Shown one piece after another: positions 38,166 through 63,573 of a stretch of DNA of 64,000 nucleotides. Source of the DNA: Akkermansia muciniphila. GTDB lineage: Bacteria; Verrucomicrobiota; Verrucomicrobiia; Verrucomicrobiales; Akkermansiaceae. The stretch lies in assembly GCA_945860285.1 (NCBI GenBank), contig CAMAQB010000002.1:28917-92916 (forward strand), given 5' to 3'. The notes below the pieces were generated by a model. The model made no database searches. It saw only the letters and a program-made list of their open reading frames with translations, and had not been told where the DNA came from. The position numbers and the translations under genes were made by a program. Each line of letters opens with the position of its first letter. The stretch's first letter is position 1.

Positions 38166-41100
38166 TCAAGGAAGCGCAAGCTGGTAGAAGGCACTCGGCT
38201 GGGGTGGAGATTCGTCAGTGAAACTCACCACACCAGTGGGACCGGCGGTGACCGTTGCAATGGTCTGCCAGACAACCATGTCCGTTGATCGCTCGATCTG
38301 ATAGGAACGCCCCGGGATCCCTTGGAATCGAATACCAACATGACCGCCTGGCAGCATCGTGAGGATGGGTGGATTGGTGGACGGACCGCCAGCTCCACCA
38401 CCAGCCGGCGCGGGACCGACAGTGACTGTGACCGTCCCGTTCACCGTGCCGCCGCGCCCGTCGCTCAAGGTCAGCGCAAAGGTGTCGATGCCCGAGAAGG
38501 AAGCTGGCGGCGTGTAGAGGATGGCAGTGGACTGCAACGCCACCGTGCCGCCCATGGTCGATGCCGGGCCGGCAGCAGCGACTGTGAGCAGATCGCCATC
38601 GGGATCGGCCCCCTTGGCCAGCAACTTGCGAAGCGAAACCGAAGCCGCCGTCTGGTAGGGCGTACTGAAGGCATACCCGGAGAAAGTCGGTGGTGAGTTG
38701 GTGGTGAAGGTCATGTCCAGCCCGGCGGCGTTGCCGTTGGCGTTGCTGGCAAGCGTCCGGTAGTGGTAGGTGGTTCCGGCAGTTAGTCCATTGATCGACG
38801 CGCTGACGGCGGTGGCCGAACTCGCCGTGACCGGCGACGGAATGCCAACCACCGTGGTGCCGTAGTTTGTTGTTAGACCGTACTCGAACGACACCGTGGT
38901 GCTGACGCCGCTGCCGTTCACGGTTCCGTTGAGGGTGGCGCTTGTGGTCATGATGCCCGAAGCGGCGGTCGTCACGGCACCGGGCGGAGGCGGCGAGCCG
39001 GACAAAGCCACGCAATGATTCGCCAAGGCACCTGTGAACACGGCCACAAGCCGGTCTCCAGCGGTGACAGTGCTGGTATCAAAGACGGTGGGCAGCAGCT
39101 TGACATTGCGGCGTCCCCACGCGGCGAGAGTCCCGTCGGCAAAGAGCGCGAGGTTTTCCCGATCCCCAGCCTTGACCATGCGGATGGTCTTACCGGCCAA
39201 CACGCCGGTGATGGAAACCCGCACCGGCACCAGACGTCGGGTCGCCGTATTGTCACCCACCTCGCCAGAGGAATTGTTGCCCCATGCGGCCATGGTGCCG
39301 TCGGAGCAGATGACAAGGCTGTGAGATGACCCTGCGTGGATCGCGGTGATTGTCTTGCCCGCCAACACGCCTGTTTGGTCCACCAACACTGGCACGCTGC
39401 GGTTGGTGACGCTGTTGTTGCCTAACTGGCCACCTGCATTGTATCCCCAGGCGGCCAGCGTGCCGTCCGCGCACAGCGCGAGGCTATGGCTATGGCCTGC
39501 GGCGATGGCGGTGACTTGTTTGCCGGCGAGCACGCCCGTCATGTCGACCAGCACAGGCACGCTGCTGCTGGTGGTGCTGTTGTTGCCTAACTGGCCGAAG
39601 GAGTTATCCCCCCAAGCGGCCACGGTTCCGTCCGAACACAGCGCGAGGATGTGGTTGTTTGTGGCGGAAATGGCGACCACGGATTTCTTGATCAGTACGC
39701 CGCTCTGATCTACGAGAACGGGCTGCAAGACGTAGCTTGCCGTGCCGTTGTTACCCAGCACGCCGTTGGAGTTAATCCCCCATGTGGACAAGGTTCCGTC
39801 CGAACACAACGCGATCGAATACTGGTTGCCGGCCGCAACGGCGATCACTCGTTTGCCTGCAAGCACCCCGGTGAGATCGGTCAACACCGGCATTAGTACC
39901 AAGCTGTCGGAGGTAGTGCCATTGCCGTACGCTCCCATGTTATTATGTCCCCAAGCGGCCACACTCCCGTCCACGCACAAGGCGAGATTGTGACTAGAAC
40001 CCACGGCGGCGGCGGTGACTGTCTTGCCAGCGAGCACGCCGTTCATGACCGTCGCCACCGGCGTCGTCGAGAAGGTCCTGCTGTTATTGCCCAACTGCCC
40101 AAAGAAATTCTCCCCCCATGCCCACAACTTCGTGTTCGCCCATTGCAAGACCAAATCGTTGCCGGTTCCACCGAAGTAATCGGCGACGAACGAGTAGGTG
40201 ACCCCGTCGTATGTCAACTGCACCAATTGTCCCTGCGCAAGGTTGCCAAAGGCACCTTGGATCGGGCCGTTGCCGGTTTTTCTGACAACCGTCAGACTGG
40301 TGCCCGTCGCCGGGGCGAAGTTCAGCGCGAAACCCGGCACGTTGCCAGTCGCCGCGAATTCACTGACGGTCACAGGCACGTCAGTTTCCGATTGGAACGT
40401 GATCACTTCCGCCAAACGGGTGACGACCACAGTGTAAGTTTTTGTGTTGGCAGGATCGGCACCAATGACGACCGTCTGGATCACCGTGTTGCCGACGGCC
40501 AGGTTGATCGGGGCACTCGTCGAACCCGATGTCACCGAGGCACCGTTCACCTGAATTGTCGAACCCGTGTCGGTGGCGGCAGGCGTAACCGTTAGATCGG
40601 CGGTGGCGAAGGGCACGGTGACACTATAATCGACGCGGGCGGACGAGAACCCAGGCACCAAGGTGGAGTTGCTCAACGACAACCCGGACAGCGTGGCGTA
40701 GGCCTGCGTAGTGAATGTCATATCATCGCCGTATCCGGTATCGTTGGCATTGGCGGCGACCACCCGGTAGTGATAGGTCGTGCCAAAGGCCAAGCCCTCG
40801 AGCAGGACGCTAACGGCTGTTTCTCCGGTGCCGCTGACCGACACCGGACTAGGCGTGACGGTGGTGTCGTACGCTTGGGTCAGACCAAGCTGAAACGACA
40901 GGTTCGCGGTCGTGTTGTTCGGCATGACGCTCGCATTCAAGGTGGCCGTTGTTTCGCCAATCCCGGTGGCGGCCAAGGTGGTGGTGGCGGGGCGCGGCGG
41001 CGAAGCCACGACGGCATTGCATTGGATGTAATCGTAGGAATCGCCGGAGACGGCGGACACAAAGCGTTCGCCCGTTCGCAACGCGGTGGTAATGCTCAAC

Positions 41101-44100
41101 ACCGGCACGCTGCTGCTGGTCGTGCTGTTGTTGCCCAACTCGCCGTAACTGTTAGACCCCCAGGTGGCCAGCGTGCCGTCCGAGCAGACGACGAGATTGT
41201 GCCCGATGCTGGAGGAGATTCCGGTGACTGTCTTGCCAACAAGCACGCCGCTGCGGTCCACCAACACCGGCACGTTGCTGTTGCCGGTGGTGCCGTTGCC
41301 CAGTTTGCCGGTACTGCCTGAACCCCAGGCGGCCACCGTGCCATCCGAGCACAGCGCGAGGCTGTGGGTCTGCCCGGCTGCCGCCGCCGTGATCGTCTTG
41401 CCCGACAGCACCCCGGTCTTGTCCACCGCTACCGGCGTCGAACTGTCGGTCGTGGTGTTGTTGCCCAACTGCCCGCCGGCGTTGTCGCCCCATGCCGCCA
41501 AGGTGCCATCCGAGCATACCGCCATACTGTGAGCTGTGCCAGCCGTGATGGCAGTCGGCGTTTTGCCGGAGAGAGCGCCAGTTTGGCTAACCTGGGTCGG
41601 CAGCGGATTACTGATCACCGAGGTGTTTCCCAGTTGCCCATCGCTGTTAGATCCCCATGAGGCGATGGTTCCATCCGAACACAAGGCGAGATTGTGGGCG
41701 CGGCCGGCCGCGATACCCACGACTGTCTTGCCGGCCAGTATGCCTGTCTGGCTCACCAAAACCGGACGCAAGGCATCGACATAGTTGCCATTGCCGAGTT
41801 GACCGGAGCCATTGTCCCCCCAAGCAGCCAGTGTGCCGTCGGCGCACAGCACAAGGCAATGAGCAAATCCGCAAGTGATGGCGACGATGGTTTTTCCGGC
41901 GAGCACCCCCGTTGTGTCCACCAGTTGCGGCACTGAGCTGTCGTTAGTGGTGCCGTTACCGAGTTGGCCTTGGGAGTTGCTACCCCACGCTACCAGCGTG
42001 TTGTCCGAGCACAACACCAGCTTGTGATAACTCCCCGTGGCGGTGGCGATCACCGTCTTTTGGCTGAGGATGCCCGTCATGGGCACCGCCATCGGCACCA
42101 TTTGGCCGGTGAACGATTGAAACCTGCCCCAGACCATGAGACGGTTGTTGGCCCATTGCAGCACGAGGTCGTTGCCGGTACCGCCGAAGTAATTGGCCGT
42201 GAAGGCGTAGGAAATGCCGTTGTATGTTAGATAGACCACCTGCCCCTGCGCGAGGTTGGCGAAGGTTCCCCTGATCGGGTTGTAGCCGGTGTTCTTGACC
42301 ACCATCAGGATGGTGCCGACATCCGGAGCATAGGACAGGGAAATGGCGGGTGCGTTGCCTGCGGCGGCAAACGCGCTTGCCGTCACCGGCACGGTGGTGG
42401 CGGAAGCAAAGGCGAATGCCGCCGGCAGACGGGTCACCGTGATGGAGTAGGTCTTGGTGGTGCCGCCGGTGGCGGTGACCACGGTGCTGATAGTATTGTT
42501 GCCAACGGACAGGGTGATCGCGCCACTGGGCGAGTCGGAGGCCACCGTGACGCCGTTCACCTTCACGGTGGACGTGGAATACGTCACCACCGGGGTCACG
42601 GTGATGCTGCCCACCTCGTTCGGCACCGTCAGGAGATAGCTGGTGACGGAACTGGCGAATGCAGGCGAAAGCGTGCCGTTGCTCGGTGTCAAGAATGATA
42701 GACACGCCAAACTACTGGTGGTGAAAGTGAGGTCGTCACCTGTCACCGTGCCGCCGTTGCTTGTGGCCACCACGCGGTAGTGATAGGTCGTGCCCGAGAG
42801 CAATCCGCTGAGCGTGGCACTGACCGCCGTGGCCGTGGTTCCTGTGAGAGTCGCGGGCGAAGCGGTGACGGTGGTGCCGTAGGCGGTGGTCAAGCCATAT
42901 TCGAAGGAAACCGAGGTGCTGGTGCCATTGGCGCTCACGTTGCCCCGCATGGTGGCTCCGGTGTCGGTCTCGCCGGTGGTCGCAAGGGTCGTCGCCAGCG
43001 GCGGCGGCGGCGAGGCGACCAACGCAAAGTTGTGCCCGGACCACAATCCGGAAAGTCCGCCGACGATACGCTCTCCGGTTTTCAAGGCAGTGGTGGCGAC
43101 CAACACCGGCACCATGCTGTTCGTGGTGCTGTTGTTACCCAACTGGCCGTAGAAATTGGTACCCCATGTCGCCAGGGTTCCGTCGGAACATCGTGCGAGG
43201 CTGTGGTTTTGGCCGGCGGCTATGCCAACAACGGTCTTGCCGGCGAGCACGCCCGATTGGGTGACCATGACCGGCACGTTGCTCTGGGTTGTGCTGTTAT
43301 TGCCCAGTCCACCGTTTGAATTGGCTCCCCATGCCACCAGTGTCCCGTCCGCACAAAGCGCCAGGCTGTGACTTGCCCCGGCCACCAGTGCGACCGGAGT
43401 CCTGCCGACGAGCACTCCGGTTCGATCGACCAACACCGGCACTGAGGAATTTGTGGTGCTGTTGTTGCCCAACTGGTTACTGTCGTTGGATCCCCACGCG
43501 GCAATTGAGCCGTCCGAGCACAGCGCGCAACTGTGGGATCCGCCGGCAGTCACGGCCGTAACAGTCTTTCCTGCCAACACTCCGGTTTGATTCACTAACA
43601 CCGGAACGTTGCTTTGTGTCTTGCTGTTGTTGCCGAGTTGGCCGCTGGCATTGCCACCCCACGCAGCCACCGTTCCATCCGCGCAAAGTGCCAAGCTGAA
43701 CTTCAATCCCGCCGCGATCGCGACCACTCTCTTGCTGACCAGGACACCGCTCATATCCACCAGCACTGGCACCTTGCTGTTGGTCGTGCTGTTGTTGCCT
43801 AACTGCCCGCTATCATTGCTGCCCCACGCAACGAGCGTCCCGTCGGAGCACAATGCGAGCTGGTGGTTGGCACCTACCGCGATGGCCACCACCGTTTTAC
43901 CCGCCAGCACGCCGGTCCGGTCAACCAAGACAGGCACGGCGGAATCCTCGTTGCTGTTGTTGCCCAACTGGTCGAAATAATTGGCTCCCCATGCGGCGAG
44001 CGTGCCGTCCGAACACAAGGCCAAACTGTGTACTGAGCCCGCCGCCACGGTCAGGATCGTCTTGCCGACAAGCTCGCCTGAATTCACCACCGCCACAGGC

Positions 44101-47100
44101 ACGTTAATCTGTGTCAAATGATTTGTACCCAACTGTCCGCTGCTATTGGCACCCCAGGCCAACAACCGGTTGCTCGCCCACTGCAGTACCAGGTCATTGC
44201 CAGTGCCGCCGAAGTAGTTGGCAACAAAGAAGAAGGTGACCCCGTTGTAAGTTAGAGTCACCCGTTGTCCTTGCGACAGGTTGTCAAAGGTGCCGCGGAT
44301 CGGGGCGAGGCCGGTGTTTTTCACCACGGTAAAGTCGGTGCCGACTGACGGGGCGTAGCTCAGCGCGAACGATACCGACTTGTCGGAAGCCTCGAAGTCG
44401 GGGACGGTCATGGGCACATACGTGGCGGAGTTGTAGGTGTAGACGGAGGCCAACCGGGTCACTGTCACGGTGTAGGTCTTGGTGATGCCGCCTCCTGCGG
44501 CCGTGACCTTGATGTTGATCGGGTTGTTACCTATCGTTAGATCGAGCAGCCCGCTGGCGGTGCCGGATTCCACCGGGACATCGTTGATCGTGACGGTGGC
44601 ACCCGGATTGAGGACGACCGGGGTGAACGAAATCGTCGTGGCGCTGTTCGGCACCGAGATCGAGTAACTGGTGACCCTGCTGTCGAAGGCTGGCAACAGC
44701 GTGCCGGTGCTCGCGGTCAGGCTGGCAAGAGAGGCAAAGGTGGACGTGGTGAAACTCATGTCCTCGCCCTTGACCGTGCCTCCGGCGCTGGTTGCCACCA
44801 CCCGATAATGGTAGGTGGTCCCGGAGGTCAGGCCGGCGGGGGTAGTCGCCACCGCCGTCACCGCCGCTCCTGTTAGCGTCGCGGGCGTGGCCGCAGCGGT
44901 GAGTCCGTAAGACGTGGTGGTGCCGTATTCAAAGGAGACGCTGGTGCTGCTGCCTTGGGCGCTGATGGTGCCGTTTAAGGCAGCGGCGGTGTCGGTGACA
45001 GCGGTGGCCGCCAGAGTCGTTACCGCGGGTTTCGGCGGCGCACTCACGGTGGCGAGACTGTGAGAATTCCCGCCGCTCACCGCGGTGAAACGTTCGCCTG
45101 TATTCAAGGCACCGGTGTTGACCTCCACAGCCACTTTACTGTTAGATGTGCTGTTGTTACCCAACTGGCCATAGTTGTTATAGCCCCAAGCGGCGATTGA
45201 TCCGTCGGAACACCGCGCAAGACTATGACCGCTCGTCGCCGCAATGCCCGTGACCATCTTGCCGGCCAGTACGCCTGCAGAGTTGATCACGATCGGGATG
45301 TTGCTTTGACTGGTGCTGTTGTTTCCGAGCTGGCCGTATGTGTTCTGCCCCCAAGCGGCGATGCTTCCGTCCGAGCACAATACCAGATTGTGACTCCCCC
45401 CTGCGGCAATGGCGGTGACCGTCTTGCCGAAGAGCACACCGCTCCGATCCACCAGTACCGGCACCGAGGCACTGATAGTGCTGTTGTTGCCCAACTGGCC
45501 GCTGAAGTTGTTGCCCCAAGCGGCCAAAGTGCCATCCGAACACAGCACAAGGCTGTGGTATTCTCCGGCGGCGATGGCAATGACCGTCTTGCCGGATAGC
45601 ACGCCAGTGCGATCCACCAGCACCGGAAGGTCGGCGTGCATGGTGCTCTTGTTGCCCAATTGGCCGGAAGAATTGTAGCCCCATGAGGCAAGAGTGCCGT
45701 CCGAGCAGAGTGCCAACGCATGGTTGGATCCGGCGGCGATCGCCACCACGATTTTGCCGGCAAGCACCCCCGAATCGCTGACCAGGACCGGCCGGTAGCT
45801 CTGCTCGATCGTACCTCTGCCCAGTTGGCCGGAGTCGCCCCGACCCCACCCGGCTACCCGGCCGTCGGAGCACAACGCCAGACAATACTGGTTCCCGGTC
45901 GCCACGGAAACCACCGTCCTGCCTGAAAGCACGCCAGTCTGGTCAACCAACACTGGGATGTCGCTGCGCGCCGAGCTGCCGTTGCCCAATTGAAAGAAAG
46001 TGTTGTCGCCCCATGTGACCACGGTGCCGTCGGAACACACGGCCAGACACAGGTCGCCGCCTGCGTCACTGGCGATCACGACCTTGCCGTCGAGCGCTCC
46101 CTTCATGAACACCGGCACCGGCACGCTGCTGCTTGTGGTCACATTGTTGCCCAATTGGCCAGAAGAATTGTAGCCCCAGGCTAACAATCGTGCGTTGGCC
46201 CACTGCAGAACCAGATCATTGCCATTACCGCCAAAATAGTTTGCCACAAATACATAGGTAATCCCGCCGAAGGTCAAATTCACCGCCTGCCCTTGGTTCA
46301 GGTTGTCAAACTTGCCCTGGATGAATGCCAAGCCGGTGTTGTTGACAACCGTTAGATCTGTCCCGACTATCGGCGCAAAATTCAACGAAAAATTTGCTGT
46401 GTTTCCTATAAGCGTGAGCACGTCTACTGTCAAAGGGACATCCTGCATGTTGGTAAAGTTGGCACTTAGGTTGTTGCTGCTGAAACTTGCCACTATCGTA
46501 TGCGCGCTGGAAACGTTTGTGATCGTATAGTTGGACAACGAACCCTTTGAAGAGCCGTCCACCAAGACGTCCGCAATGTGATAGCCGGGCTCGGCAGTGA
46601 TCGTATAGGCCTGACTTTCTCCTTGATTCAGGGTCACCCCCCCCGCCGGGCTGATGCTTCCATTCGGCCCCGCCGTCGCCTCGACGGTCCACGAGAATGC
46701 TTCGTCGGCACCGATGTCAGGCGTGCTGGCGTTCCGGGCACTTCCGTCATAATCCAAGGGAACTCCGGTAAGTGGTGTCCCGGTGTTGTTCGCAGGACTA
46801 CTGAAGGCGATGTGCAGATCCACCGATGCAGGAGGCTGGGCCGCGCCAAGAAAAAGAGGATCGCCGGTCAGACTGTTCGCATCCTGCCCGGTCGCGGTCT
46901 GCCATGTGGCAAGAGAACTGCGGTCGACGCTGTTGTAGCGGCCGAGCATACCGCCCGTGCCCGAGCTAAAGACGAGATTGTTGCTTGCGGTCAGGCCGGC
47001 AGGATTCGCCACCGTGCCGCCGTACTGCAGGGCATAATGTTTGCTGGTAGCTCCGCTGTTGCTGCGCGAATTGAAAAAGATGTTGTTCACGTATGCGCGG

Positions 47101-49148
47101 ACATTGCTCACTCCGCTTAGACCATCAAAGGCAAACGTATTTGCCGAACCTGCGGTCTGCAGACCTCCCACATAAACGGAATTGTGATAGAAATTGCGCC
47201 CTGCGTTCGTGCCGTTGTCGTAGATGCCCCGTATGGAAGAGGCTCCTGCTGTGCTCGCTCCACTTGCACCAATGCCAACCTGCACCATGTTGTTCCGCGC
47301 GGTGAAAATCCCAGCCACGAACTGCATCCCGGTCATCTGTGACGCGGCGCTGGAGGAAGAAAGGGCGAGATTGTGAACCAGATTCCGCTCGATGAGATTC
47401 GTTCCCGTCGTCGGTCCTGCAAAGTACAGCCCTGTTACATTGACAGCCGCAGCAGCTGACTTGTTCGCAAGCGAATGAACTTTGTTGGTGGAAACGGTCT
47501 GGCCCGCCGTGGTGGAGGTGGCGGCGATTCCCACAACCGACTGCGACGTGGTCGCGTTGGCATTAGAACTCGTGGTCGAAAGATCGCGGACGACATTGCC
47601 GATGATGCTGTTGACTCCAGCCGAGGTTGCGACACCGCGAATCTGCGAAGTGGTGGAGATCGAGTTGTCGTTGTTGTTGAGATTCGCCACCGTATTGCCT
47701 GTGATCAGCGCGCTGGTGCTGCTGGTGCTCAGAATGCCGGTGACCTGCTGACCTCCGGCGGCGGTCGAAGCAGATGTGGCATTGAGGCTGTTGGCGGTGT
47801 TGGTGCTGCCGATGAGGTTGTTGCTGATGGTATTTGTTCCCGCCCTGACCTGAATTCCGACGAGAGATGCTGCCGAGTTGAGGATTGCGGAATTCGCCGC
47901 GATGGCGCCGATGTTGTTGTTCGAGATCACCACTGTGCCCGAGCTGATCGAGCCGAGACCGTATGTGGTGCCACCGCTGCCCGAAGTATTGGTCGAGATG
48001 GATTCCGTGCCGCTGGCGCTGCCAATGGTGTTTCCGGTTTCCGTGCCGATGTTCACAGAACCAGCCTGCACATAAATCCCGCTCCAGATCCCCGGAACTG
48101 CTGTTGTGGTACTGTTCGTCGTCCAGCGGATGTTCGCAATGGTGTTGTTCTGCAAGCTGCTGGCCATGGCCGTGCCGACATTCAGATGGATGCCTGCGAA
48201 AAGAAATGCCGCCGTGGTGGTGGTGGTGGTCCATGCCGCCCCCCCGGCGCCTGGCGTGCTGCCGCCGATGAAATTATTCGTCACGACGAAGTTGTTGCCA
48301 AGACTGTTGTTGATGTAGATCGGACGGACCGTCGTCGCTACCGCTGCGCGTGTTGCGGTTTGGTAAAAACTGTTGCCGGTAATGGTCCAGTTGGCATTGC
48401 CGGCATTCAGGCGCACGCCCGCCGATTCAACGCTTGCTGTGAGGGAGTGGAAATTGAATACATTGCAATTGGAAACGGTGTTGCCGCTGTTGTCCTTCGG
48501 CGACGCCGTGCCGGTCGAACAAATGCCGTTGACGGGAGTGCTCGCTCCGTCGCGAATGTCACACTGATCAATTGTGTTATTGTCATTGCCATCCGCTCCG
48601 GTGGTCGTGCTGAACAAGACCGTGCCACTGTTGGCGCTGGTATTCACTCCCGCAAGCGTCAGGTGTCGGATCGTGTTGTTGCTGGCCTCGTTGATGAAGC
48701 AAAGCGCCACTCCGGCATTCGCGGTGTTTGCAATGGTGAGTTGTTTCGCTGTGCCCGTGCCGCCGGGGCGTCCGTCGAGGACAACATTTTGCGCGCCATT
48801 CATATACACCGTTGCCGCAGTGGTGTTCGCACTGGTAATGGAGAGCGAGTTTGCACCAATGGCTGGCCGGATGGTGAGGTTGTTCGCCGCGCTGGAACCT
48901 GTGAGCGCCGGAATGGTCAGCGGAAATGTCTCGACGCTGCTAACATAACCGGCCTGAAGCTCGAGAATGAGCGCGCCATCAAGCCCGTTTCCGGCCGTCT
49001 GCACATCAGCGATGGCGGCAGTGAGGGACGTGTAATTTCCTGTCGGTCCAACGGTTTTGACGCCTGAGAGAGGTAGCGCATGCCCATTCAGTCCAAGAGC
49101 AATGGATAACAAGACAATAAGCTGGGGAAGTCGGAGGTTTCCTATCAT
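38166..49148 (-). CDS. Giant secreted protein with beta-helix and four seven-repeat RCC1 arrays
   Basis: A single 3660-residue frame. The N-terminus is a signal (LRLPQLIVLLSIALGLNGHALP). Residues about 30-820 are a parallel beta-helix rich in N/T/S repeats (NNTIDQCDIRDGAS, LEGNTIANL-like turns), ending DIGADEAFSW. An InlB-B-like repeat follows (GPNGSISPAGGVTLNQGESQAYTITAEPGYHIADV). Then come four cassettes, each with a beta linker ending NYFGGxGNDLVLQW, an array of seven RCC1-type repeats (AWGxNxxGQLGNN ... LALCSDGT), an FN3-like domain (SVSFEYGTTTSYG ... TTYHYRVVATS) and, in the first three, a cadherin-like beta-sandwich (LVPAFSS...YTVTVTRL). The end has a cadherin-tandem repeat (GADPDGDLLTVAAAG) and the verrucomicrobial terminal module (YQIERSTDMVVWQTIATV). 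No PEP-CTERM or autotransporter barrel is seen. Function unknown; probably an adhesin or a carbohydrate/protein-binding surface fibre. Confidence 0.9.
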   Translation of the reverse strand: MIGNLRLPQLIVLLSIALGLNGHALPLSGVKTVGPTGNYTSLTAAIADVQTAGNGLDGALILELQAGYVSSVETFPLTIPALTGSSAANNLTIRPAIGANSLSITSANTTAATVYMNGAQNVVLDGRPGGTGTAKQLTIANTANAGVALCFINEASNNTIRHLTLAGVNTSANSGTVLFSTTTGADGNDNNTIDQCDIRDGASTPVNGICSTGTASPKDNSGNTVSNCNVFNFHSLTASVESAGVRLNAGNANWTITGNSFYQTATRAAVATTVRPIYINNSLGNNFVVTNNFIGGSTPGAGGAAWTTTTTTAAFLFAGIHLNVGTAMASSLQNNTIANIRWTTNSTTTAVPGIWSGIYVQAGSVNIGTETGNTIGSASGTESISTNTSGSGGTTYGLGSISSGTVVISNNNIGAIAANSAILNSAASLVGIQVRAGTNTISNNLIGSTNTANSLNATSASTAAGGQQVTGILSTSSTSALITGNTVANLNNNDNSISTTSQIRGVATSAGVNSIIGNVVRDLSTTSSNANATTSQSVVGIAATSTTAGQTVSTNKVHSLANKSAAAAVNVTGLYFAGPTTGTNLIERNLVHNLALSSSSAASQMTGMQFVAGIFTARNNMVQVGIGASGASTAGASSIRGIYDNGTNAGRNFYHNSVYVGGLQTAGSANTFAFDGLSGVSNVRAYVNNIFFNSRSNSGATSKHYALQYGGTVANPAGLTASNNLVFSSGTGGMLGRYNSVDRSSLATWQTATGQDANSLTGDPLFLGAAQPPASVDLHIAFSSPANNTGTPLTGVPLDYDGSARNASTPDIGADEAFSWTVEATAGPNGSISPAGGVTLNQGESQAYTITAEPGYHIADVLVDGSSKGSLSNYTITNVSSAHTIVASFSSNNLSANFTNMQDVPLTVDVLTLIGNTANFSLNFAPIVGTDLTVVNNTGLAFIQGKFDNLNQGQAVNLTFGGITYVFVANYFGGNGNDLVLQWANARLLAWGYNSSGQLGNNVTTSSSVPVPVFMKGALDGKVVIASDAGGDLCLAVCSDGTVVTWGDNTFFQLGNGSSARSDIPVLVDQTGVLSGRTVVSVATGNQYCLALCSDGRVAGWGRGDSGQLGRGTIEQSYRPVLVSDSGVLAGKIVVAIAAGSNHALALCSDGTLASWGYNSSGQLGNKSTMHADLPVLVDRTGVLSGKTVIAIAAGEYHSLVLCSDGTLAAWGNNFSGQLGNNSTISASVPVLVDRSGVLFGKTVTAIAAGGSHNLVLCSDGSIAAWGQNTYGQLGNNSTSQSNIPIVINSAGVLAGKMVTGIAATSGHSLARCSDGSIAAWGYNNYGQLGNNSTSNSKVAVEVNTGALNTGERFTAVSGGNSHSLATVSAPPKPAVTTLAATAVTDTAAALNGTISAQGSSTSVSFEYGTTTSYGLTAAATPATLTGAAVTAVATTPAGLTSGTTYHYRVVATSAGGTVKGEDMSFTTSTFASLASLTASTGTLLPAFDSRVTSYSISVPNSATTISFTPVVLNPGATVTINDVPVESGTASGLLDLTIGNNPINIKVTAAGGGITKTYTVTVTRLASVYTYNSATYVPMTVPDFEASDKSVSFALSYAPSVGTDFTVVKNTGLAPIRGTFDNLSQGQRVTLTYNGVTFFFVANYFGGTGNDLVLQWASNRLLAWGANSSGQLGTNHLTQINVPVAVVNSGELVGKTILTVAAGSVHSLALCSDGTLAAWGANYFDQLGNNSNEDSAVPVLVDRTGVLAGKTVVAIAVGANHQLALCSDGTLVAWGSNDSGQLGNNSTTNSKVPVLVDMSGVLVSKRVVAIAAGLKFSLALCADGTVAAWGGNASGQLGNNSKTQSNVPVLVNQTGVLAGKTVTAVTAGGSHSCALCSDGSIAAWGSNDSNQLGNNSTTNSSVPVLVDRTGVLVGRTPVALVAGASHSLALCADGTLVAWGANSNGGLGNNSTTQSNVPVMVTQSGVLAGKTVVGIAAGQNHSLARCSDGTLATWGTNFYGQLGNNSTTNSMVPVLVATTALKTGERIVGGLSGLWSGHNFALVASPPPPLATTLATTGETDTGATMRGNVSANGTSTSVSFEYGLTTAYGTTVTASPATLTGTTATAVSATLSGLLSGTTYHYRVVATSNGGTVTGDDLTFTTSSLACLSFLTPSNGTLSPAFASSVTSYLLTVPNEVGSITVTPVVTYSTSTVKVNGVTVASDSPSGAITLSVGNNTISTVVTATGGTTKTYSITVTRLPAAFAFASATTVPVTASAFAAAGNAPAISLSYAPDVGTILMVVKNTGYNPIRGTFANLAQGQVVYLTYNGISYAFTANYFGGTGNDLVLQWANNRLMVWGRFQSFTGQMVPMAVPMTGILSQKTVIATATGSYHKLVLCSDNTLVAWGSNSQGQLGNGTTNDSSVPQLVDTTGVLAGKTIVAITCGFAHCLVLCADGTLAAWGDNGSGQLGNGNYVDALRPVLVSQTGILAGKTVVGIAAGRAHNLALCSDGTIASWGSNSDGQLGNTSVISNPLPTQVSQTGALSGKTPTAITAGTAHSMAVCSDGTLAAWGDNAGGQLGNNTTTDSSTPVAVDKTGVLSGKTITAAAAGQTHSLALCSDGTVAAWGSGSTGKLGNGTTGNSNVPVLVDRSGVLVGKTVTGISSSIGHNLVVCSDGTLATWGSNSYGELGNNSTTSSSVPVLSITTALRTGERFVSAVSGDSYDYIQCNAVVASPPRPATTTLAATGIGETTATLNASVMPNNTTANLSFQLGLTQAYDTTVTPSPVSVSGTGETAVSVLLEGLAFGTTYHYRVVAANANDTGYGDDMTFTTQAYATLSGLSLSNSTLVPGFSSARVDYSVTVPFATADLTVTPAATDTGSTIQVNGASVTSGSTSAPINLAVGNTVIQTVVIGADPANTKTYTVVVTRLAEVITFQSETDVPVTVSEFAATGNVPGFALNFAPATGTSLTVVRKTGNGPIQGAFGNLAQGQLVQLTYDGVTYSFVADYFGGTGNDLVLQWANTKLWAWGENFFGQLGNNSRTFSTTPVATVMNGVLAGKTVTAAAVGSSHNLALCVDGSVAAWGHNNMGAYGNGTTSDSLVLMPVLTDLTGVLAGKRVIAVAAGNQYSIALCSDGTLSTWGINSNGVLGNNGTASYVLQPVLVDQSGVLIKKSVVAISATNNHILALCSDGTVAAWGDNSFGQLGNNSTTSSSVPVLVDMTGVLAGKQVTAIAAGHSHSLALCADGTLAAWGYNAGGQLGNNSVTNRSVPVLVDQTGVLAGKTITAIHAGSSHSLVICSDGTMAAWGNNSSGEVGDNTATRRLVPVRVSITGVLAGKTIRMVKAGDRENLALFADGTLAAWGRRNVKLLPTVFDTSTVTAGDRLVAVFTGALANHCVALSGSPPPPGAVTTAASGIMTTSATLNGTVNGSGVSTTVSFEYGLTTNYGTTVVGIPSPVTASSATAVSASINGLTAGTTYHYRTLASNANGNAAGLDMTFTTNSPPTFSGYAFSTPYQTAASVSLRKLLAKGADPDGDLLTVAAAGPASTMGGTVALQSTAILYTPPASFSGIDTFALTLSDGRGGTVNGTVTVTVGPAPAGGGAGGPSTNPPILTMLPGGHVGIRFQGIPGRSYQIERSTDMVVWQTIATVTAGPTGVVSFTDESPPQPSAFYQLALP
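39005..40130 (-). repeat. RCC1 array 4 of the giant protein (seven repeats)
   Basis: Seven WG-centred units: LWAWGEN, VAAWGHN, LSTWGIN, VAAWGDN, LAAWGYN, MAAWGNN and LAAWGRR. The last unit has lost its GQLG turn. Seven repeats equals one complete RCC1 beta-propeller. Confidence 0.85.
41020..42140 (-). repeat. RCC1 array 3 of the giant protein (seven repeats)
   Basis: Seven units: LMVWGRF, LVAWGSN, LAAWGDN, IASWGSN, LAAWGDN, VAAWGSG and LATWGSN. The first unit is aberrant (WGRFQSFTGQMVPMAVPM) and lacks the LGNN turn. Confidence 0.85.
43020..44165 (-). repeat. RCC1 array 2 of the giant protein (seven repeats)
   Basis: Seven units: LLAWGAN, LAAWGAN, LVAWGSN, VAAWGGN, IAAWGSN, LVAWGAN and LATWGTN, each about 50 residues and ending in a GQLGNNS-type turn. 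Confidence 0.87.
45050..46195 (-). repeat. RCC1 array 1 of the giant protein (seven repeats)
   Basis: Seven units: LLAWGYN, VVTWGDN, VAGWGRG, LASWGYN, LAAWGNN, IAAWGQN and IAAWGYN, separated by about 50 residues with a conserved LALCSDGT strand. Confidence 0.87.
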
Positions 49149-56865: not shown

Positions 56866-59691
56866 TCAATTGCCGGCCAGCCATTGACGCAATGCCATGC
56901 CGGTGGCGGATGTGGAATTTGACGCGACTTGCTGTGGTGTGCCTTCCGCCACAATCCTGCCACCGTTGACCCCGCCACCGGGGCCGAGGTCGATCACCCA
57001 GTCGGCTGCCGCAATGACTTCCAATTGATGTTCGACAACCAGAACGCTGTGTCCGGCATCGCGCAACCTGGCGAATGCCTCCAGCAATTTTCTTACATCG
57101 CCGAAGTGCAGTCCGGTGGTTGGTTCATCGAACAGATATAGAGTCTGCCCTGACGAAGCCGGGCGTGCCAGTTCAACGGCAAGCTTCAAACGTTGAGCCT
57201 CGCCTCCGGACAGGGTGTTCGCCGCCTGTCCCAGGGTCAGATAACCGAGTCCGAGATCGTGCATCACATCGAGCAAATGCCTGATTTTCGGAACGGCTTG
57301 GAACAAGTCCCTGGCTTTGTCGATGCTGCATCCGAGCAGGTCTGCGATGTTGTGACCTTTGAAGGCGATTTCCAGGGTCTCGCGATTGAATCGTCGTCCC
57401 TCGCAGGCAGCACACGTCACCCAGGCATCGGGCAGGAAGTGCATTTCAATTTTGATGCGACCCGCACCCTCGCATCGCTCGCAGCGTCCGCCGCGGATGT
57501 TGAAACTGAAACGCCCGGAATTGTAGCCACGTTGTCGGGACATCGGCAGCTTGGAAAACAAATCCCTGACGATGTCGAACAATCCCGTATAGGTCGCCGG
57601 ATTCGAACGCGGGCTTCTGCCGATCGCGCTTTGATCGACCACGACCACCTTGCTCAGCCACTGCGCTCCTTCCAGCCCCGCATGAAGGCCTGGTGTCTCG
57701 CCCGAGCGGGAAAACCGGCGAATCAGCGCGCGGGCAATCACATCCTCGGCGAGGGTGGATTTTCCGCTACCGCTCGGGCCGGTGAGACAAACGATTTTCC
57801 CTAACGGAATCCGCACGTCCATTCCCGTCAGGTTGCGTTCGCTGACCTTCTTGACCACCAGCCAGGGGCCTTCACTTTTCACCGCTTGATGAACGGGCCA
57901 GACTCTTTTTTCCCGCAACCAGTCGACCGTCGGCAGGTGATGCAGGTCCTGCAATCGCCCGGCACCAAGAACCGCACCTCCGGAAACTCCCGCACCGGGA
58001 CCCATTTCGATCAGCCAATCGGCGGCGCGAATCACTGATTCATCATGTTCTACTACGACAATCGTATTTCCCATGTCGCGCAGATTGAGCAGGGCGGTGA
58101 TCAGTCGGCCGGTGTCTCCCGGATGAAGGCCGATGCTTGGTTCATCGAGAACATACAACACGCCTGAAAGCCCCGAGCCCAGTTGCGAGGCGAGGCGGAT
58201 GCGTTGAGCCTCGCCGCCGGAAAGAGTGCCACTGGCCCGATTCAATGCCAGATAGGATAGACCCACATCCATCAAAAAACCCAGCCGCCTGGAGGTATCG
58301 CCGAGCACTTGACGCAGCGCCGGATTTTTTTCCATCGGCATCTGAATTCCCTTCAACCACTGCAATGACTCGTTCACCGGCAGGGCGCAGAAATCCTGTA
58401 TCCCCAGCCAAAGACCACCCGAGCCTTCGACCCGCACCGCCAGAACCGATGCCTTCAGGCGTTTGCCGTTGCAGACCCGGCAGGGCCGGTGCGACATCAC
58501 CCGCAGCAAACGGCGGCGCGCTGCTTCCGATTTGACTTCCCTGACCTTGCGCTCCGCTTCCGGGCACAAACCTTCGATGGTTTTTGTCTTGCTGCGTTTC
58601 TCCAAACCAGCCTTCCATCCGGTGTCGACTTCCCCTCCATGGATCAACACCGCATGCAGGGATTCGGGCAAATCCTGCCACGTCGTTTGTTCGTCCACCC
58701 CGTGCATGCGCAACAGCGCCCGGGCCTCGCGCACGAACTGCAATCCGCGCGGTCCGCCGGGTTTCCACCATCCGGCCACCGCCCCTGACAGAACCGCTTT
58801 GGTTTCATCGGCAATCAACAAAGCAGGGTCACAGAACATTTCCGTGCCCACACCTTCGCAGGACTCGCAGGCGCCGAGATGGGAGTTGTAGGAAAAATGT
58901 TTGGGAGAAAGTTCACCCATCACAAAGCCCGTCTGCGGATTCCGATAACTGGTCTGAAAAGAGATCGTTGTCCATTCCTCCGCTCCGGGCTCGCTGAGCA
59001 GCACGCGGGCCTCGTTGCCGCACAGCCGCAAACAGGCCTCGATGCTGTCGGCCATGCGCGATTCCATCCCGCCGCGAATCACCAGTCTGTCGACCACGAT
59101 TTCAAGCGATGCGACGGATTCATGCGGCGAAACCTCTTCGATATCGAGCATCACGCCATTGACCCGAACTCTAACAAATCCCTGACGTTTTAGGTCGGAC
59201 AACAGCGCGGAAATGTCGCCCAGGTTCACGACGTCCACAGGTGCCAGCAACACCACCTTGGTGCCCTCGGCACGGGACAGCAGCGATGCAACGATGTCCC
59301 GGGCACTCATGCGCTCTAGTTTTTCGCCGGTCTGCGGGTCGTGCGGTACTCCGACCGCCGCCCACAAGACCCTCAGAAAATCGTAAATTTCCGTGGCGGT
59401 GGCCACCGTTGATCGCGGGTTGAGCCCACCGCTGCGTTGTTCGATCGCGATGGCCGGGCAAAGGCCGTCGATGCCATCGACATCCGGTTTTTCCAACTGA
59501 TCGAGAAACTGTCGCGCATAAGCCGAAAGCGATTCGACATAACGGCGCTGCCCCTCGGCATAAAGAGTGTGAAAGGCCAGAGAGGATTTTCCGCAGCCGC
59601 TGGGTCCAGTGATGACCACGAGTTTGCCCTTGGGAATGTCGAGGGAAACATTCTTCAGATTGTGCTGCCGGGCGCCCCTGATACGAATCAT
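56866..59691 (-). CDS. uvrA: Excinuclease ABC subunit A
   Basis: This protein of about 941 residues has two ABC ATPase halves. The first Walker A is VVITGPSGCGKSSLAFHTLYAEGQRRYVESLSAYARQFL and the second CLTGPSGSGKSTLAEDV, with the LSGGEAQRIRLASQL and LSGGEAQRLKLAVELA signatures. The second zinc motif is intact (GGRCERCEGAGRIKIEMHFLPDAWVTCAACEGRRFN). In the first zinc module the leading CxxC is lost (TSYRNPQTGF instead), although GACESCEG remains. UvrA finds bulky DNA lesions for UvrBC. Planctomycetes and Verrucomicrobia carry such variant UvrA copies, so this may be a paralogue rather than the main one. GTG 59697 is an alternative start. The ECF sigma gene follows closely. Confidence 0.95.
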   Translation of the reverse strand: MIRIRGARQHNLKNVSLDIPKGKLVVITGPSGCGKSSLAFHTLYAEGQRRYVESLSAYARQFLDQLEKPDVDGIDGLCPAIAIEQRSGGLNPRSTVATATEIYDFLRVLWAAVGVPHDPQTGEKLERMSARDIVASLLSRAEGTKVVLLAPVDVVNLGDISALLSDLKRQGFVRVRVNGVMLDIEEVSPHESVASLEIVVDRLVIRGGMESRMADSIEACLRLCGNEARVLLSEPGAEEWTTISFQTSYRNPQTGFVMGELSPKHFSYNSHLGACESCEGVGTEMFCDPALLIADETKAVLSGAVAGWWKPGGPRGLQFVREARALLRMHGVDEQTTWQDLPESLHAVLIHGGEVDTGWKAGLEKRSKTKTIEGLCPEAERKVREVKSEAARRRLLRVMSHRPCRVCNGKRLKASVLAVRVEGSGGLWLGIQDFCALPVNESLQWLKGIQMPMEKNPALRQVLGDTSRRLGFLMDVGLSYLALNRASGTLSGGEAQRIRLASQLGSGLSGVLYVLDEPSIGLHPGDTGRLITALLNLRDMGNTIVVVEHDESVIRAADWLIEMGPGAGVSGGAVLGAGRLQDLHHLPTVDWLREKRVWPVHQAVKSEGPWLVVKKVSERNLTGMDVRIPLGKIVCLTGPSGSGKSTLAEDVIARALIRRFSRSGETPGLHAGLEGAQWLSKVVVVDQSAIGRSPRSNPATYTGLFDIVRDLFSKLPMSRQRGYNSGRFSFNIRGGRCERCEGAGRIKIEMHFLPDAWVTCAACEGRRFNRETLEIAFKGHNIADLLGCSIDKARDLFQAVPKIRHLLDVMHDLGLGYLTLGQAANTLSGGEAQRLKLAVELARPASSGQTLYLFDEPTTGLHFGDVRKLLEAFARLRDAGHSVLVVEHQLEVIAAADWVIDLGPGGGVNGGRIVAEGTPQQVASNSTSATGMALRQWLAGN

Positions 59692-59800
59692 CTCCACACG
59701 CCCACTTAAAACGCGAATCGTGCTTCTGGAAACTAAAAACTCCCCGTGGCGGAAGGAACCTTCATTGCCAGACGGTTTCTACTTCAGCGGAGCTAGAAGG

Positions 59801-59873: not shown

Positions 59874-60013
59874 ATGCATTTCTGCATCGGACAACCTGCT
59901 TTGGGCGGGTCGGGACAGCGATTATGGAAACAAAAGCCGTTTTGGCAATGGAAAAATGCCTCGATCCTGAAAATTTCTGTCACCGATGATTGCACCGCAG
60001 TGCGGTTCTTCCT

Positions 60014-60856
60014 ATGCTGATGCCCATGGCCACTCTCACTCTCGGCAAGCGTACGGTGTTCTCTCTAACGGGAAACGACGCGGTCCGATACCTGAATGGC
60101 CAGGTGACTCAGGACGTGCGAAGGTTGTTGACAGATCCGGCACGCGCTTTGGCCACCTGCGTCACCGATGCGAAGGGTCGATTGCAGGCGCTTGCCACAC
60201 TGTATCTGATCGACCCGCAGAAGCCGGAAATTTTGATCGAATCCGCTCCGGAGCTGCGGGAAATGCTTTACGCAAGACTCGGCCGCTATTTGATTGCCGA
60301 TGATGCCGAGCTTGCCGATGTTTCCGACGAATGGATTCTGCTTCACCATCTTGGTCACGCACCAACCGGACAATCGTATGCTTATCCTCGACTGGGGATT
60401 GCAGGCTTCGACCAATGGGTTCCGGCAGATGTCGTAGTTTCTTTGGAAGATAAATTGACACAGCTCGAGTCGGAAAAAATCCGTATCGAACATGGTGTGC
60501 CGGCATGGGATGTCGACCTGCAACCAGGCATGCTGCCGCAGGAAGCGGGACTTGAGGAACTGACCTTGTCATTTCAAAAAGGCTGCTACATCGGCCAGGA
60601 AGTCATATCCCGCATCAAGTCTGCGGGCAAACTCAACCGCATCCTGCGAAAATTCCACTTGCGCAACGATCAGGTTGTCAAAGGCGGAGAACTGCTTTCC
60701 TTCGCTGGCCAGGATGTCGTCGGCACGCTCACCAGCGTGGTTTACCCCCACGCCTTGGGGTTTCTGCAGAAAAAAGGCTTCGGCCAAAAAACCTTCGACC
60801 TGCGGCTGTCCGATGGCAGCATACTCGCACAGGCGGTTGACATGGCCGAAGGATGA
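60014..60856 (+). CDS. ygfZ: YgfZ/CAF17-like folate-binding protein
   Basis: This protein of about 280 residues resembles the GcvT-fold YgfZ family: VFSLTGNDAVRYLNGQVTQDVRRL at the N-terminus, ATCVTDAKGRLQALATLYLI, the YgfZ hallmark LSFQKGCYIGQEVISRIKSAGKLNRILRKF with its Cys, and GTLTSVVYPHALGFLQKKG. YgfZ uses tetrahydrofolate to help maintain Fe-S enzymes such as MiaB. Several in-frame starts exist (TTG 59990, ATG 60014, 60020, 60026); the start is not settled. It is convergent with the double retropepsin gene, six bases away. Confidence 0.88.
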   Translation: MLMPMATLTLGKRTVFSLTGNDAVRYLNGQVTQDVRRLLTDPARALATCVTDAKGRLQALATLYLIDPQKPEILIESAPELREMLYARLGRYLIADDAELADVSDEWILLHHLGHAPTGQSYAYPRLGIAGFDQWVPADVVVSLEDKLTQLESEKIRIEHGVPAWDVDLQPGMLPQEAGLEELTLSFQKGCYIGQEVISRIKSAGKLNRILRKFHLRNDQVVKGGELLSFAGQDVVGTLTSVVYPHALGFLQKKGFGQKTFDLRLSDGSILAQAVDMAEG

Positions 60857-60861
60857 CAGCC

Positions 60862-62271
60862 TTACCGCTGGATCAGGAAAATACGGTTTTCCCGATAGGT
60901 GATCACGGCATCCAGCTCGCGCATGAAGTCGGCTCCAAACAGACCCACGTAGTCGAGCTGCCCGCCGCTGCGGGTTGTCATGTCGGTGGCGAGGGTGCGG
61001 CGGTTCGTCAGTTCCACCTTGCCCATGGTGAGTTTTTTGATCACCGTCTCGCCCGCCGGTGCCGAGCCACCGATACCGTAAACCTTGTGTTCCATCGGAC
61101 CGACCTCACATCCATTCTTCTTAGCTTCGACAAGGTCGAGCAACGAGGTATTCGCTCCGGTATCGATCATGTAGGTGACCTTGTTCGCATTGAGCGTGCC
61201 ATCGACAAAAATGTGATTGCCGCGTCGCTCATACTGAAACGAATTGTACTTGCGCAGGTTGAGCAGTTCCTCGATTTTCAAAGCACCGCAATGGCGTAGA
61301 AAGATGTCGCCCGCCTCGGTCCAACTGTTGGCGAACTCCTGATCCTCCTTGGACAAATTCGCCACTGGAATTTGCTGCTCCTTGCCGGCGGCGAGCTTGA
61401 CCGTAATCACCGTGGAAGTTTTGGATACGATGTTCGCGCGAAAACTTTTTCCGTCGAGCGTTTTGAAAATGCGGAAGTTGAGCACCTCGTCCTTTTCCTT
61501 CACCTCACCCTCGACACCGGCATCGGTTGATTTCGCGGACTCGCCGTCGAGGCGTTTGACATCGGAATTGTCCGGACGGAAGAAAATGCGGTTTTCCTTG
61601 TAAGAAATCACCGTGTCGAGCTGCGAAAGCAGGTCCGCCCCGAACAATCCGGCGGAAGTCGAGTCCTTGGCATTCTCGGGTTTGTCCTTGTCCATGTCGG
61701 TGGCGAGGATCTTGCGGTTTTTGAAAACCGACTCGCCCATCGCAAGGGTCGGCACCTCGACCCAGCCCGCAGGCACTTCGCCCGCAACGCCATGGACCTT
61801 TTCCGTCATCGGCCCGACTTTCAATCCGCATTTTTCGACGATTTTCGTGTGCAGCAGGCTGGTGCCGGCTCCGGTATCGACAACAAAACGCGCGTCCTTG
61901 TCATTGAGCTTGGCGGTGATGATGATCGAATTGCCTTCGAGCGTCATCGGAAATGATTCGTACCCCCGCAACTCCAGCAGTTGGCGCACCGTCAGGCTCA
62001 GGCATTTTTGCAGGAACAGAGCCTTTTCCTTGCTCCAGCCTTTGATGTACTCCTGGTCTTCGGCGGAAAGGCTGGTCAACGGGACCACGGCGCGACGTTT
62101 GTTTTCCATCAGCAGGGTGGCGGAAGTATCGGTCTTGTCGATCAACGCGGCCTTGATTTCCTTGCCGGTGGAGCCCTTGAACACCCGGTATTCCTGGCCG
62201 CTCTCGGTCGTCTGCGCCCGCAGCGAAGCCATTCCGGATACGGCGAAAATGATGCAAATCAATCTTTTCAT
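60862..62271 (-). CDS. Exported tandem SHD1-retropepsin protein (two aspartic protease domains in one chain)
   Basis: This 469-residue protein has a signal peptide (LICIIFAVSGMASLRAQ) and is an internal duplication. Each half has an SHD1-like domain (YRVFKGSTGKEIKAALIDKTDTSATLLMENKRRAVVPLTSLSAEDQEYI; FRIFKTLDGKSFRANIVSKTSTVITVKLAAGKEQQIPVANLSKEDQEFA) followed by a retropepsin-like fold with a catalytic DTG (Asp132 in FVVDTGAGTSLL, Asp370 in YMIDTGANTSLL) and a shared end (GLFGADLLSQLDTVISYKENRIFF / GLFGADFMRELDAVITYRENRIFL). Each retropepsin normally acts as a homodimer, so two DTG motifs in one chain could form an internal pseudo-dimer. SHD1 domains are typical of Planctomycetes and Verrucomicrobia. 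It is followed by another SHD1 gene upstream on the same strand. Confidence 0.88.
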   Translation of the reverse strand: MKRLICIIFAVSGMASLRAQTTESGQEYRVFKGSTGKEIKAALIDKTDTSATLLMENKRRAVVPLTSLSAEDQEYIKGWSKEKALFLQKCLSLTVRQLLELRGYESFPMTLEGNSIIITAKLNDKDARFVVDTGAGTSLLHTKIVEKCGLKVGPMTEKVHGVAGEVPAGWVEVPTLAMGESVFKNRKILATDMDKDKPENAKDSTSAGLFGADLLSQLDTVISYKENRIFFRPDNSDVKRLDGESAKSTDAGVEGEVKEKDEVLNFRIFKTLDGKSFRANIVSKTSTVITVKLAAGKEQQIPVANLSKEDQEFANSWTEAGDIFLRHCGALKIEELLNLRKYNSFQYERRGNHIFVDGTLNANKVTYMIDTGANTSLLDLVEAKKNGCEVGPMEHKVYGIGGSAPAGETVIKKLTMGKVELTNRRTLATDMTTRSGGQLDYVGLFGADFMRELDAVITYRENRIFLIQR

Positions 62272-62301: not shown

Positions 62302-63573
62302 TTATTTGAACTCGCTGCTCTTGATGTATTCGACCCAGTCGGCTTCCATTTTTTCCACGCTGTCAAATCCGTAGATCTTGGCAAACTCAATCGGCTCGGG
62401 GATGGTATTGTTCGACTCCACCCGGCGTACCAGGCGGGCGAACGCGCAAATCCGCTTCGGATTGCTTTGCAGATAATTCGCAAACGAATAGACCAGCACC
62501 AGTTTGGCCGGATTGAGCGATGCCTGATCGACCCCGAGAATTTCCTGCAAATTGGGGGTGAGCTTGCCGCGTTTCACCTCTGTTTTCAAAATTTTTGCCC
62601 ACGCCGTGCCGTCCTCATATCCCGATTTGGAAGTGATCTCGATTCCCGATGAACCGCTGGCATCGATCAAATGCGTCTCGGTCTTCTCGGCGAGTTTGAT
62701 TTCCTTGTAGTAGGCGTGACCGGTGACGATGGTGAAGTATCCTTTTTGACCCACGCTGCCGACTCCGCCCATTTGCTGGTTGAGCAGATGACCGGCAAGA
62801 CAGTGAGTGGGAAACGGGGTGAACACTTTTTTGAACTCGATGCCGTTGTCGATGTTGAACACCGAAGCCACCGGGTGGAAATTCCCCTTCTCCTGCTCTT
62901 CCTTGGGCAGGGCGACGGTATTGCCGCCGACCTTGTCCCATATGGCCTTGACCTGCGCCACTTCCTTCTGGGCTTCCGCATTGGCGGCATCCTCCATCAG
63001 AACTTTGGCATACCAATCGCCCAAGGCCTTGTAGATCTTGCGGTCCTCGACCACGAAAATCACCCGGCGTTTGTCACCCCAGTCGCGCCGGAAGTTCATG
63101 TGATAAAACGCCATGCCGTGCCATAGCCGCTCGGCGATCTCCGCGACAACATGGGGCCGGACATCCCCCGCGTAGGCGATGAGGAAATGTTCCGTCTCCA
63201 TCTGGTCAAAGGGCCCGACCGTCCGGTCTCCCCCGGTGAGCGACAATTTTTTGTCGAGCTTTTTGAAGGTCTTCGAATCCAGCCTGACATCCTTTTCGGG
63301 TTCGCTCAATACGCCCTCGGTCAGGATTTTTTCATCAGCCTGGGCGTTTTCGACCAGATACTGGCGGTCGGCCAGCGACAGGTCGGTCACCAGCAGTTTC
63401 TTTTCCTTGCGGTCGGGACCAACGAGAATCACGTTGGCTCCATCCAGCTTCACCAGCGAGGCATCCAGGGTGCTCCCTTTCAGCGATGTCCACACGCGAC
63501 TGTCCTCCGCCTGCAGCAAGGTGGCGGAGAACACCGCAACAGCCAACACAATGAATGAATGTATGTTTTTCAC
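62302..63573 (-). CDS. Exported SHD1-domain protein with unknown C-terminal domain
   Basis: The track ORF starts at 63672. GTG 63573 gives a good signal peptide (MKNIHSFIVLAVAVFSATLLQAEDS) and a 423-residue protein. An SHD1-like segment follows the signal (RVWTSLKGSTLDASLVKLDGANVILVGPDRKEKKLLVTDLSLADRQYLVE). The remainder (AYAGDVRPHVVAEIAERLWHGMAFYHMNFRRDWGDKRRVIFVVEDRKIY, FPTHCLAGHLLNQQMGGVGSVGQKGYFTIVTGHAYY) resembles gluzincin-type MA peptidase or DUF1570 scaffolds in layout, but there is no HExxH, so catalysis is doubtful. It lies 30 bases upstream of the retropepsin gene on the same strand and probably forms an operon with it. Confidence 0.78.
   Translation of the reverse strand: MKNIHSFIVLAVAVFSATLLQAEDSRVWTSLKGSTLDASLVKLDGANVILVGPDRKEKKLLVTDLSLADRQYLVENAQADEKILTEGVLSEPEKDVRLDSKTFKKLDKKLSLTGGDRTVGPFDQMETEHFLIAYAGDVRPHVVAEIAERLWHGMAFYHMNFRRDWGDKRRVIFVVEDRKIYKALGDWYAKVLMEDAANAEAQKEVAQVKAIWDKVGGNTVALPKEEQEKGNFHPVASVFNIDNGIEFKKVFTPFPTHCLAGHLLNQQMGGVGSVGQKGYFTIVTGHAYYKEIKLAEKTETHLIDASGSSGIEITSKSGYEDGTAWAKILKTEVKRGKLTPNLQEILGVDQASLNPAKLVLVYSFANYLQSNPKRICAFARLVRRVESNNTIPEPIEFAKIYGFDSVEKMEADWVEYIKSSEFK

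Follow-up and report, generated by a model that had tools for sequence, protein, structure and literature searches.

We analysed a window of 64,000 nucleotides, the whole stretch of Akkermansia muciniphila DNA under study, and detected near its end an ATG-initiated ORF of 469 aa, identified from the ORF list and its translation, that encodes a tandem SHD1-retropepsin and occurs once in the genome. The protein starts with MKRLICIIFAVSGMASLRA, a signal-peptide-like stretch as read from the sequence, and is probably exported. A second gene, encoding the SHD1 protein P0002 (423 aa, likely starting with GTG at 63573), is located immediately upstream on the same strand. The features of both genes are collected in the table below. 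Downstream of the protease gene are a UvrA-type gene (56866-59697, minus strand) and a YgfZ/GcvT-type gene (59990-60856, plus strand), both named from sequence; only part of the genus retains the latter next to the protease. The same window also contains a very long ORF of 3660 aa (38166-49148, minus strand).

Table. Features of the SHD1-retropepsin locus, with their positions in the window.
Feature	Position	Strand	Basis or remark
Tandem SHD1-retropepsin gene, 469 aa, product probably exported	60862..62271	-	ORF, translation, Pfam, orthologues
Signal-peptide-like N-terminus, residues 1-20	62212..62271	-	Read off the sequence; hydrophobic N-termini alike in orthologues
SHD1-like domain 1, residues 27-90	62002..62193	-	Pfam SHD1 at 18.5 bits (below cut-off); 17/24 orthologues match; profile finds 2hbp
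Retropepsin lobe 1, residues 115-234	61570..61929	-	PF13650/PF13975 stretch 118-216
Active-site motif 1, DTGA, Asp132 to Ala135	61867..61878	-	At least 95% conserved
Inter-unit linker, residues 235-264	61480..61569	-	241-264 with pLDDT below 50 in the model
SHD1-like domain 2, residues 265-328	61288..61479	-	Aligned to domain 1 and family alignment; no Pfam detection in this sequence
Retropepsin lobe 2, residues 353-469	60865..61215	-	Second PF13650 stretch
Active-site motif 2, DTGA, Asp370 to Ala373	61153..61164	-	At least 95% conserved
Partner P0002, SHD1 protein, probably exported; helical part gluzincin-like but without HExxH	62302..63573	-	Its end is 30 bp from the start of the protease gene

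The chain is composed of two tandem units, each with an SHD1-like domain and a retropepsin domain. Alignment of residues 28-230 with 266-465 gave 81 identities at 200 positions (40%) with a single 3-residue gap and a BLOSUM62 score of 396. Pfam detected Asp_protease_2 (PF13650) in two stretches at 86.7 bits against a cut-off of 24.3 bits, and gag-asp_proteas (PF13975), Asp_protease (PF09668) and RVP (PF00077), all above their cut-offs, also matched in two stretches. The sequence-only reading had placed two DTG motifs, at Asp132 and Asp370, in one chain of duplicated SHD1-retropepsin units, and both the duplication and the motifs were borne out, with DTGA present at 132-135 and 370-373. The psi-loop motif (hydrophobic-hydrophobic-Gly) is found as LFG at 209-211 and 444-446. 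Each lobe matches retropepsin families and has Ala after D(T/S)G, and by profile and by this Ala the protein is assigned to the retropepsin type.

In the protease itself SHD1 (PF03983) was detected below the Pfam cut-off (18.5 vs 23.7 bits) and for the first copy only. Among 24 orthologues, 17 have an SHD1 match (Pfam, E up to 1; best E 2.1e-6), and a profile built on the SHD1 domains of the protease found the Sla1 SHD1 structure 2hbp at E 0.008 by sequence alignment only. SHD1 was previously taken to be known otherwise from eukaryotic Sla1; this view does not hold, since the domain was reported from extracellular proteins of bacteria (PMC5906684) and, in this genome, also scores above the cut-off in two other proteins. 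Binding of NPFxD peptides by the SHD1 domains of the protease is unlikely because the protein is probably exported, and the Sla1 function is not to be carried over. Our literature search for SHD1 together with a retropepsin found no report. The SHD1 proteins L169 and L170 have HEITH metallopeptidase motifs, thus SHD1 recurs on different peptidases in Verrucomicrobiales.

About 100 ortholog loci were collected from 97 related genomes and a named genome collection, of which 69 are distinct and full-length after deduplication. These 69 come from several families of Verrucomicrobiales. Each is a two-unit protein with D(T/S)G retained in both lobes, lobe 2 reading DSG in one orthologue (L026/L081). 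A check for close homologues that had lost the motif, which would have told against the sequence-only reading, found none among them. The retention of two units and both motifs in 69 distinct orthologues argues that the tandem design is not due to chance. The D, T, G and A of the motif, the psi-loop Gly (G211/G446) and several further residues, including glycines, reach a conservation of at least 95% in either lobe. Almost no lobe-specific conserved residue passed the filter across the whole family, since the lobes resemble each other in the deep f3 lineage. Shortened protease copies are located at contig ends; one of them (L145, on contig C51 of genome G032) is a lone 174-aa remnant of the second half that starts within 34 bases of the contig end, and the partner homologue of this genome is on a different contig. 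In a broad scan of the phylum, 6 of 289 genomes had matches, four of them strong, full-length and all from one family, and two weak and partial.

The partner gene is conserved together with the protease gene. A partner homologue adjoins the protease in 62 of the 69 loci, either upstream on the same strand (39 loci), downstream and convergent (13) or upstream and divergent (10). These are the numbers after hand correction; the script itself had classed 38 loci as co-directional, 16 as convergent and 7 as divergent in addition to L039, and L039 and L083-L085, with overlapping stop-to-stop ORFs, were reassigned by hand. The partner is not adjacent in 7 loci, 4 of which are at contig ends. Among the 97 genomes, the partner is present in 31 of 31 that bear the protease and in about three without a full protease, and two genomes of the same genus (G001 and G005) have neither gene. 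The adjacency survives the changes of orientation, suggesting a functional link between the two proteins. One partner homologue (G002, contig C216, 1698-3017) has a single in-frame TGA within the match.

The partner model (pLDDT 88.3, pTM 0.85) has an N-terminal domain superposable on the Sla1 SHD1 domain 2hbp (TM 0.78, 1.6 Å), and beyond SHD1 the comparison of the model with PDB detected no relative. The layout recalls L169 and L170, the SHD1 proteins of the order with an HExxH metallopeptidase part. No HExxH is conserved in the partner family, in which the candidate helix reads PTHxxAxxL. One homologue (G032) scored 26.5 bits with PF13485 (Peptidase_MA_2), below the cut-off of 32.4, and profile comparison of the partner with Peptidase_MA_2 domains gave no match. 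The strong match to DUF1570 proteins comes mainly from the common SHD1 domain, and with SHD1 removed it is weak (E 0.002, probability 13%). The partner is perhaps a relative of the gluzincin metallopeptidases and may be a pseudo-peptidase.

The fate of the catalytic motif was followed in a census of retropepsin-fold ORFs fetched from Verrucomicrobiales by similarity, in which the single-unit class is small. According to the motif search, the two-unit full ORFs outside the protease family have at least two D(T/S)G motifs in 32 of 39 cases, one in 6 and none in 1; the six with one motif count against a pairing of lobes within the chain. Single-unit relatives, which the sequence-only reading had proposed to search for, were found, and DTG is absent in 6 of the 6 SHD1-bearing ones examined (L100, L101, L102, L104, L105 and L106), where the site reads, for instance, FVIDAGH, FLLDPNR or MLIDHRN. 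These six are apparently pseudo-proteases, from genomes of the same family. A single unit without SHD1 (L144) keeps DTG. One ORF of 902 aa (L103, 1253-3958, minus strand) strings together four retropepsin units, all of them with D(T/S)G, and may represent two fused pseudo-dimers in tandem. Nearly all DTG-retaining chains of the census have two or four units, and within the SHD1-bearing kind the catalytic motifs were seen only where the chain has two units. Four two-unit retropepsins (L138, L142, L153 and L154) come from a genus that may be Akkermansia, and L153 and L154 have DTA in place of DTG in the first unit.

A tree was computed from 82 units together with the 6 single ones. It shows a deep split between first and second lobes in most lineages, but places them as sisters in family f3. 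Whether lobe 1 and lobe 2 each go back to one origin in all orthologues was tested by holding lobe 2 together, which was marginally rejected (AU p 0.031) because of the sister lobes of f3. Gene conversion or a second, independent duplication could have produced this f3 arrangement.

The AlphaFold2 model of the protease, built with 24 aligned orthologues, has a mean pLDDT of 80.8 and a pTM of 0.73, with very low confidence (below 50) confined to residues 12-25 and the linker 241-264. Two well-folded halves placed at random to each other would, by our estimate, give a pTM of about 0.45, and since the observed value is 0.73, the chain is predicted with some confidence to pack as one body with a defined arrangement of its halves. 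The best Foldseek match in PDB was 9iy9 from Bacteroides fragilis (TM 0.44 by target), followed by plasmepsins (about 0.50, 411-440 alignment columns), renins and proteinase A. TM-score multiplied by target length, taken as an approximate count of superposed residues, was 168 for plasmepsin II (1sme), 185 for 9iy9 and 124 for a 203-residue viral target, which by its length we take to be a tethered HIV protease dimer. The one-lobed viral proteases gave 74-107, the viral structure library being used as a yardstick only. More than one lobe is thus superposed on the two-lobed proteases. The RMSD over the full Foldseek alignments is large (8-16 Å): the lobe placement may not be exactly that of pepsin, or the SHD1 inserts may spoil the alignment. 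The matches argue, though only indirectly, for DTG loops facing each other. The pepsin-like pseudo-dimer proposed in the sequence-only reading is supported by the single-body model and by the resemblance to two-lobed single chains, but the design is not unique.

We consider it probable that the gene product is an exported aspartic protease with its two lobes paired in one chain, which acts together with the neighbouring SHD1 partner. Retropepsin halves usually come as two molecules that have to pair; here the two lobes would fold together inside one chain, and Asp132 and Asp370 would meet where the lobes join to make up a single catalytic dyad, as in the two subunits of homodimeric retropepsins or the two lobes of pepsin. 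The SHD1 (SH3-fold) domain that each lobe possesses would most likely be a docking or structural module rather than a part of the active site. A specific protein outside the cytoplasm would be the target of the protease, and the SHD1 protein of the adjacent gene may cooperate with it as a substrate, anchor or regulator.

The same chain could alternatively hold two independent homodimeric proteases, each lobe binding the equivalent lobe of a second molecule; the resulting intertwined dimer would have two active sites. APRc (PMC4140852) and RloA (PMC12239564), the characterised single-lobe retropepsins of bacteria that our literature search found, are dimers, and the scarcity of lobe-specific conserved positions across the family is consistent with such pairing. 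However, the pTM of the monomer points to a defined intramolecular arrangement, the best structural matches are two-lobed single chains, and DTG was detected among SHD1-bearing relatives only where one chain has two units. We regard the intertwined dimer as unlikely.

Somewhat less likely again is a catalytically inactive protein that would use the retropepsin fold, with intact-looking motifs, for protein binding only. The SHD1-bearing single-unit relatives without DTG suggest that the fold is used non-catalytically in this lineage, but both D(T/S)G motifs are retained by every full-length orthologue in several families of the order, and DTGA and the psi-loop Gly are conserved at the level given above. 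Homology to pepsin itself (family A1), in place of a retropepsin fusion, would agree with the two lobes in a single chain and with the pepsin-like enzymes among the top structural matches, but is very improbable: PF00026 is absent among the Pfam families up to E 1 for the protease and among those shown for the 24 orthologues, both lobes score with retropepsin families, an Ala comes directly after the motif, which PMC12239564 gives as a criterion for retropepsins, and the lobes have 40% identity, while those of pepsin have nothing in common but the active-site and psi-loop motifs (PMC2761423).

Going beyond the protease with intramolecularly paired lobes, we suggest a wider and more speculative hypothesis, which we hold to be doubtful as a whole. 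The lineage may have produced a pepsin-like enzyme of its own by duplication and fusion of an SHD1-retropepsin unit, possibly repeatedly, and the enzyme would belong to an exported system that includes an obligately linked SHD1 pseudo-metallopeptidase partner and the single-unit paralogues without the catalytic Asp, which might serve as lobe-docking regulators or decoys.

Fused tandem retropepsins occur elsewhere as well. The profile of the family found 9iy9 at E 1.7e-9, with DTG units at 165-281 and 302-411, the second being weak alone. This entry, released in 2025 and deposited as 'Exported protein', is a putative endopeptidase of B. fragilis and the best PDB match both by sequence and by structure; like the present protease, it is a bacterial single chain with two DTG units of retropepsin type, so single-chain tandem retropepsins are already represented by a crystal structure. 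It differs in that no SHD1 was seen in the match, its N-terminal 160 residues or so are of another kind, its two units are directly consecutive, and its sequence is only distantly similar. The literature search found no publication on 9iy9. Two-unit Asp_protease_2 proteins (for example L107-L109, L113 and L138; about 320-370 aa) with two D(T/S)G units and signal-peptide-like starts are common in Verrucomicrobiales, although they lack SHD1 and their lobes are far less alike. The present protein is thus not the first of its design. What is new here is the loss of DTG in six of six examined single-unit SHD1-retropepsins and the conserved partner gene.

The aspartic protease Amuc_1434 of Akkermansia is inhibited by pepstatin (PMC6982040) and has a mass of 35.9 kDa and a signal peptide (PMC10688800); its size fits two units, as in the ORFs L138 and L154, and it possibly belongs to the two-unit Asp_protease_2 proteins. 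The retropepsin fold and DTG are shared with RloA, RimB and APRc, whose chains are one-lobed and pair between chains, in contrast to the arrangement predicted here; RloA, a secreted protein, forms a pseudosymmetric dimer in the crystal (PMC12239564). The relation to Sla1 is one of domain only: the N-terminal domain of the partner has the fold of 2hbp and the SHD1 domains of the protease match it weakly by sequence, whereas Sla1 is a cytoplasmic endocytic adaptor that binds NPFxD and the SHD1 domains described here are probably exported and joined to protease domains in the enzyme.

The pepsin family A1, including the shewasins, has two lobes in one chain, and a single active site is expected in both cases. 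The bacterial A1 enzymes likewise have two lobes and a predicted intracellular location, and pepsin is thought to be derived from a homodimeric ancestor by duplication and fusion, its lobes now sharing almost no sequence (PMC2761423). The lobes of the present protease differ in being of retropepsin type and still 40% identical, so that separate halves and the fused form are directly comparable at the bench. Together with the single-unit paralogues that have lost the motif, the conserved partner suggests that Verrucomicrobiales, to which Akkermansia belongs, have an exported proteolytic system not yet characterised, in which the protease resembles a young version of the fusion thought to have given pepsin.
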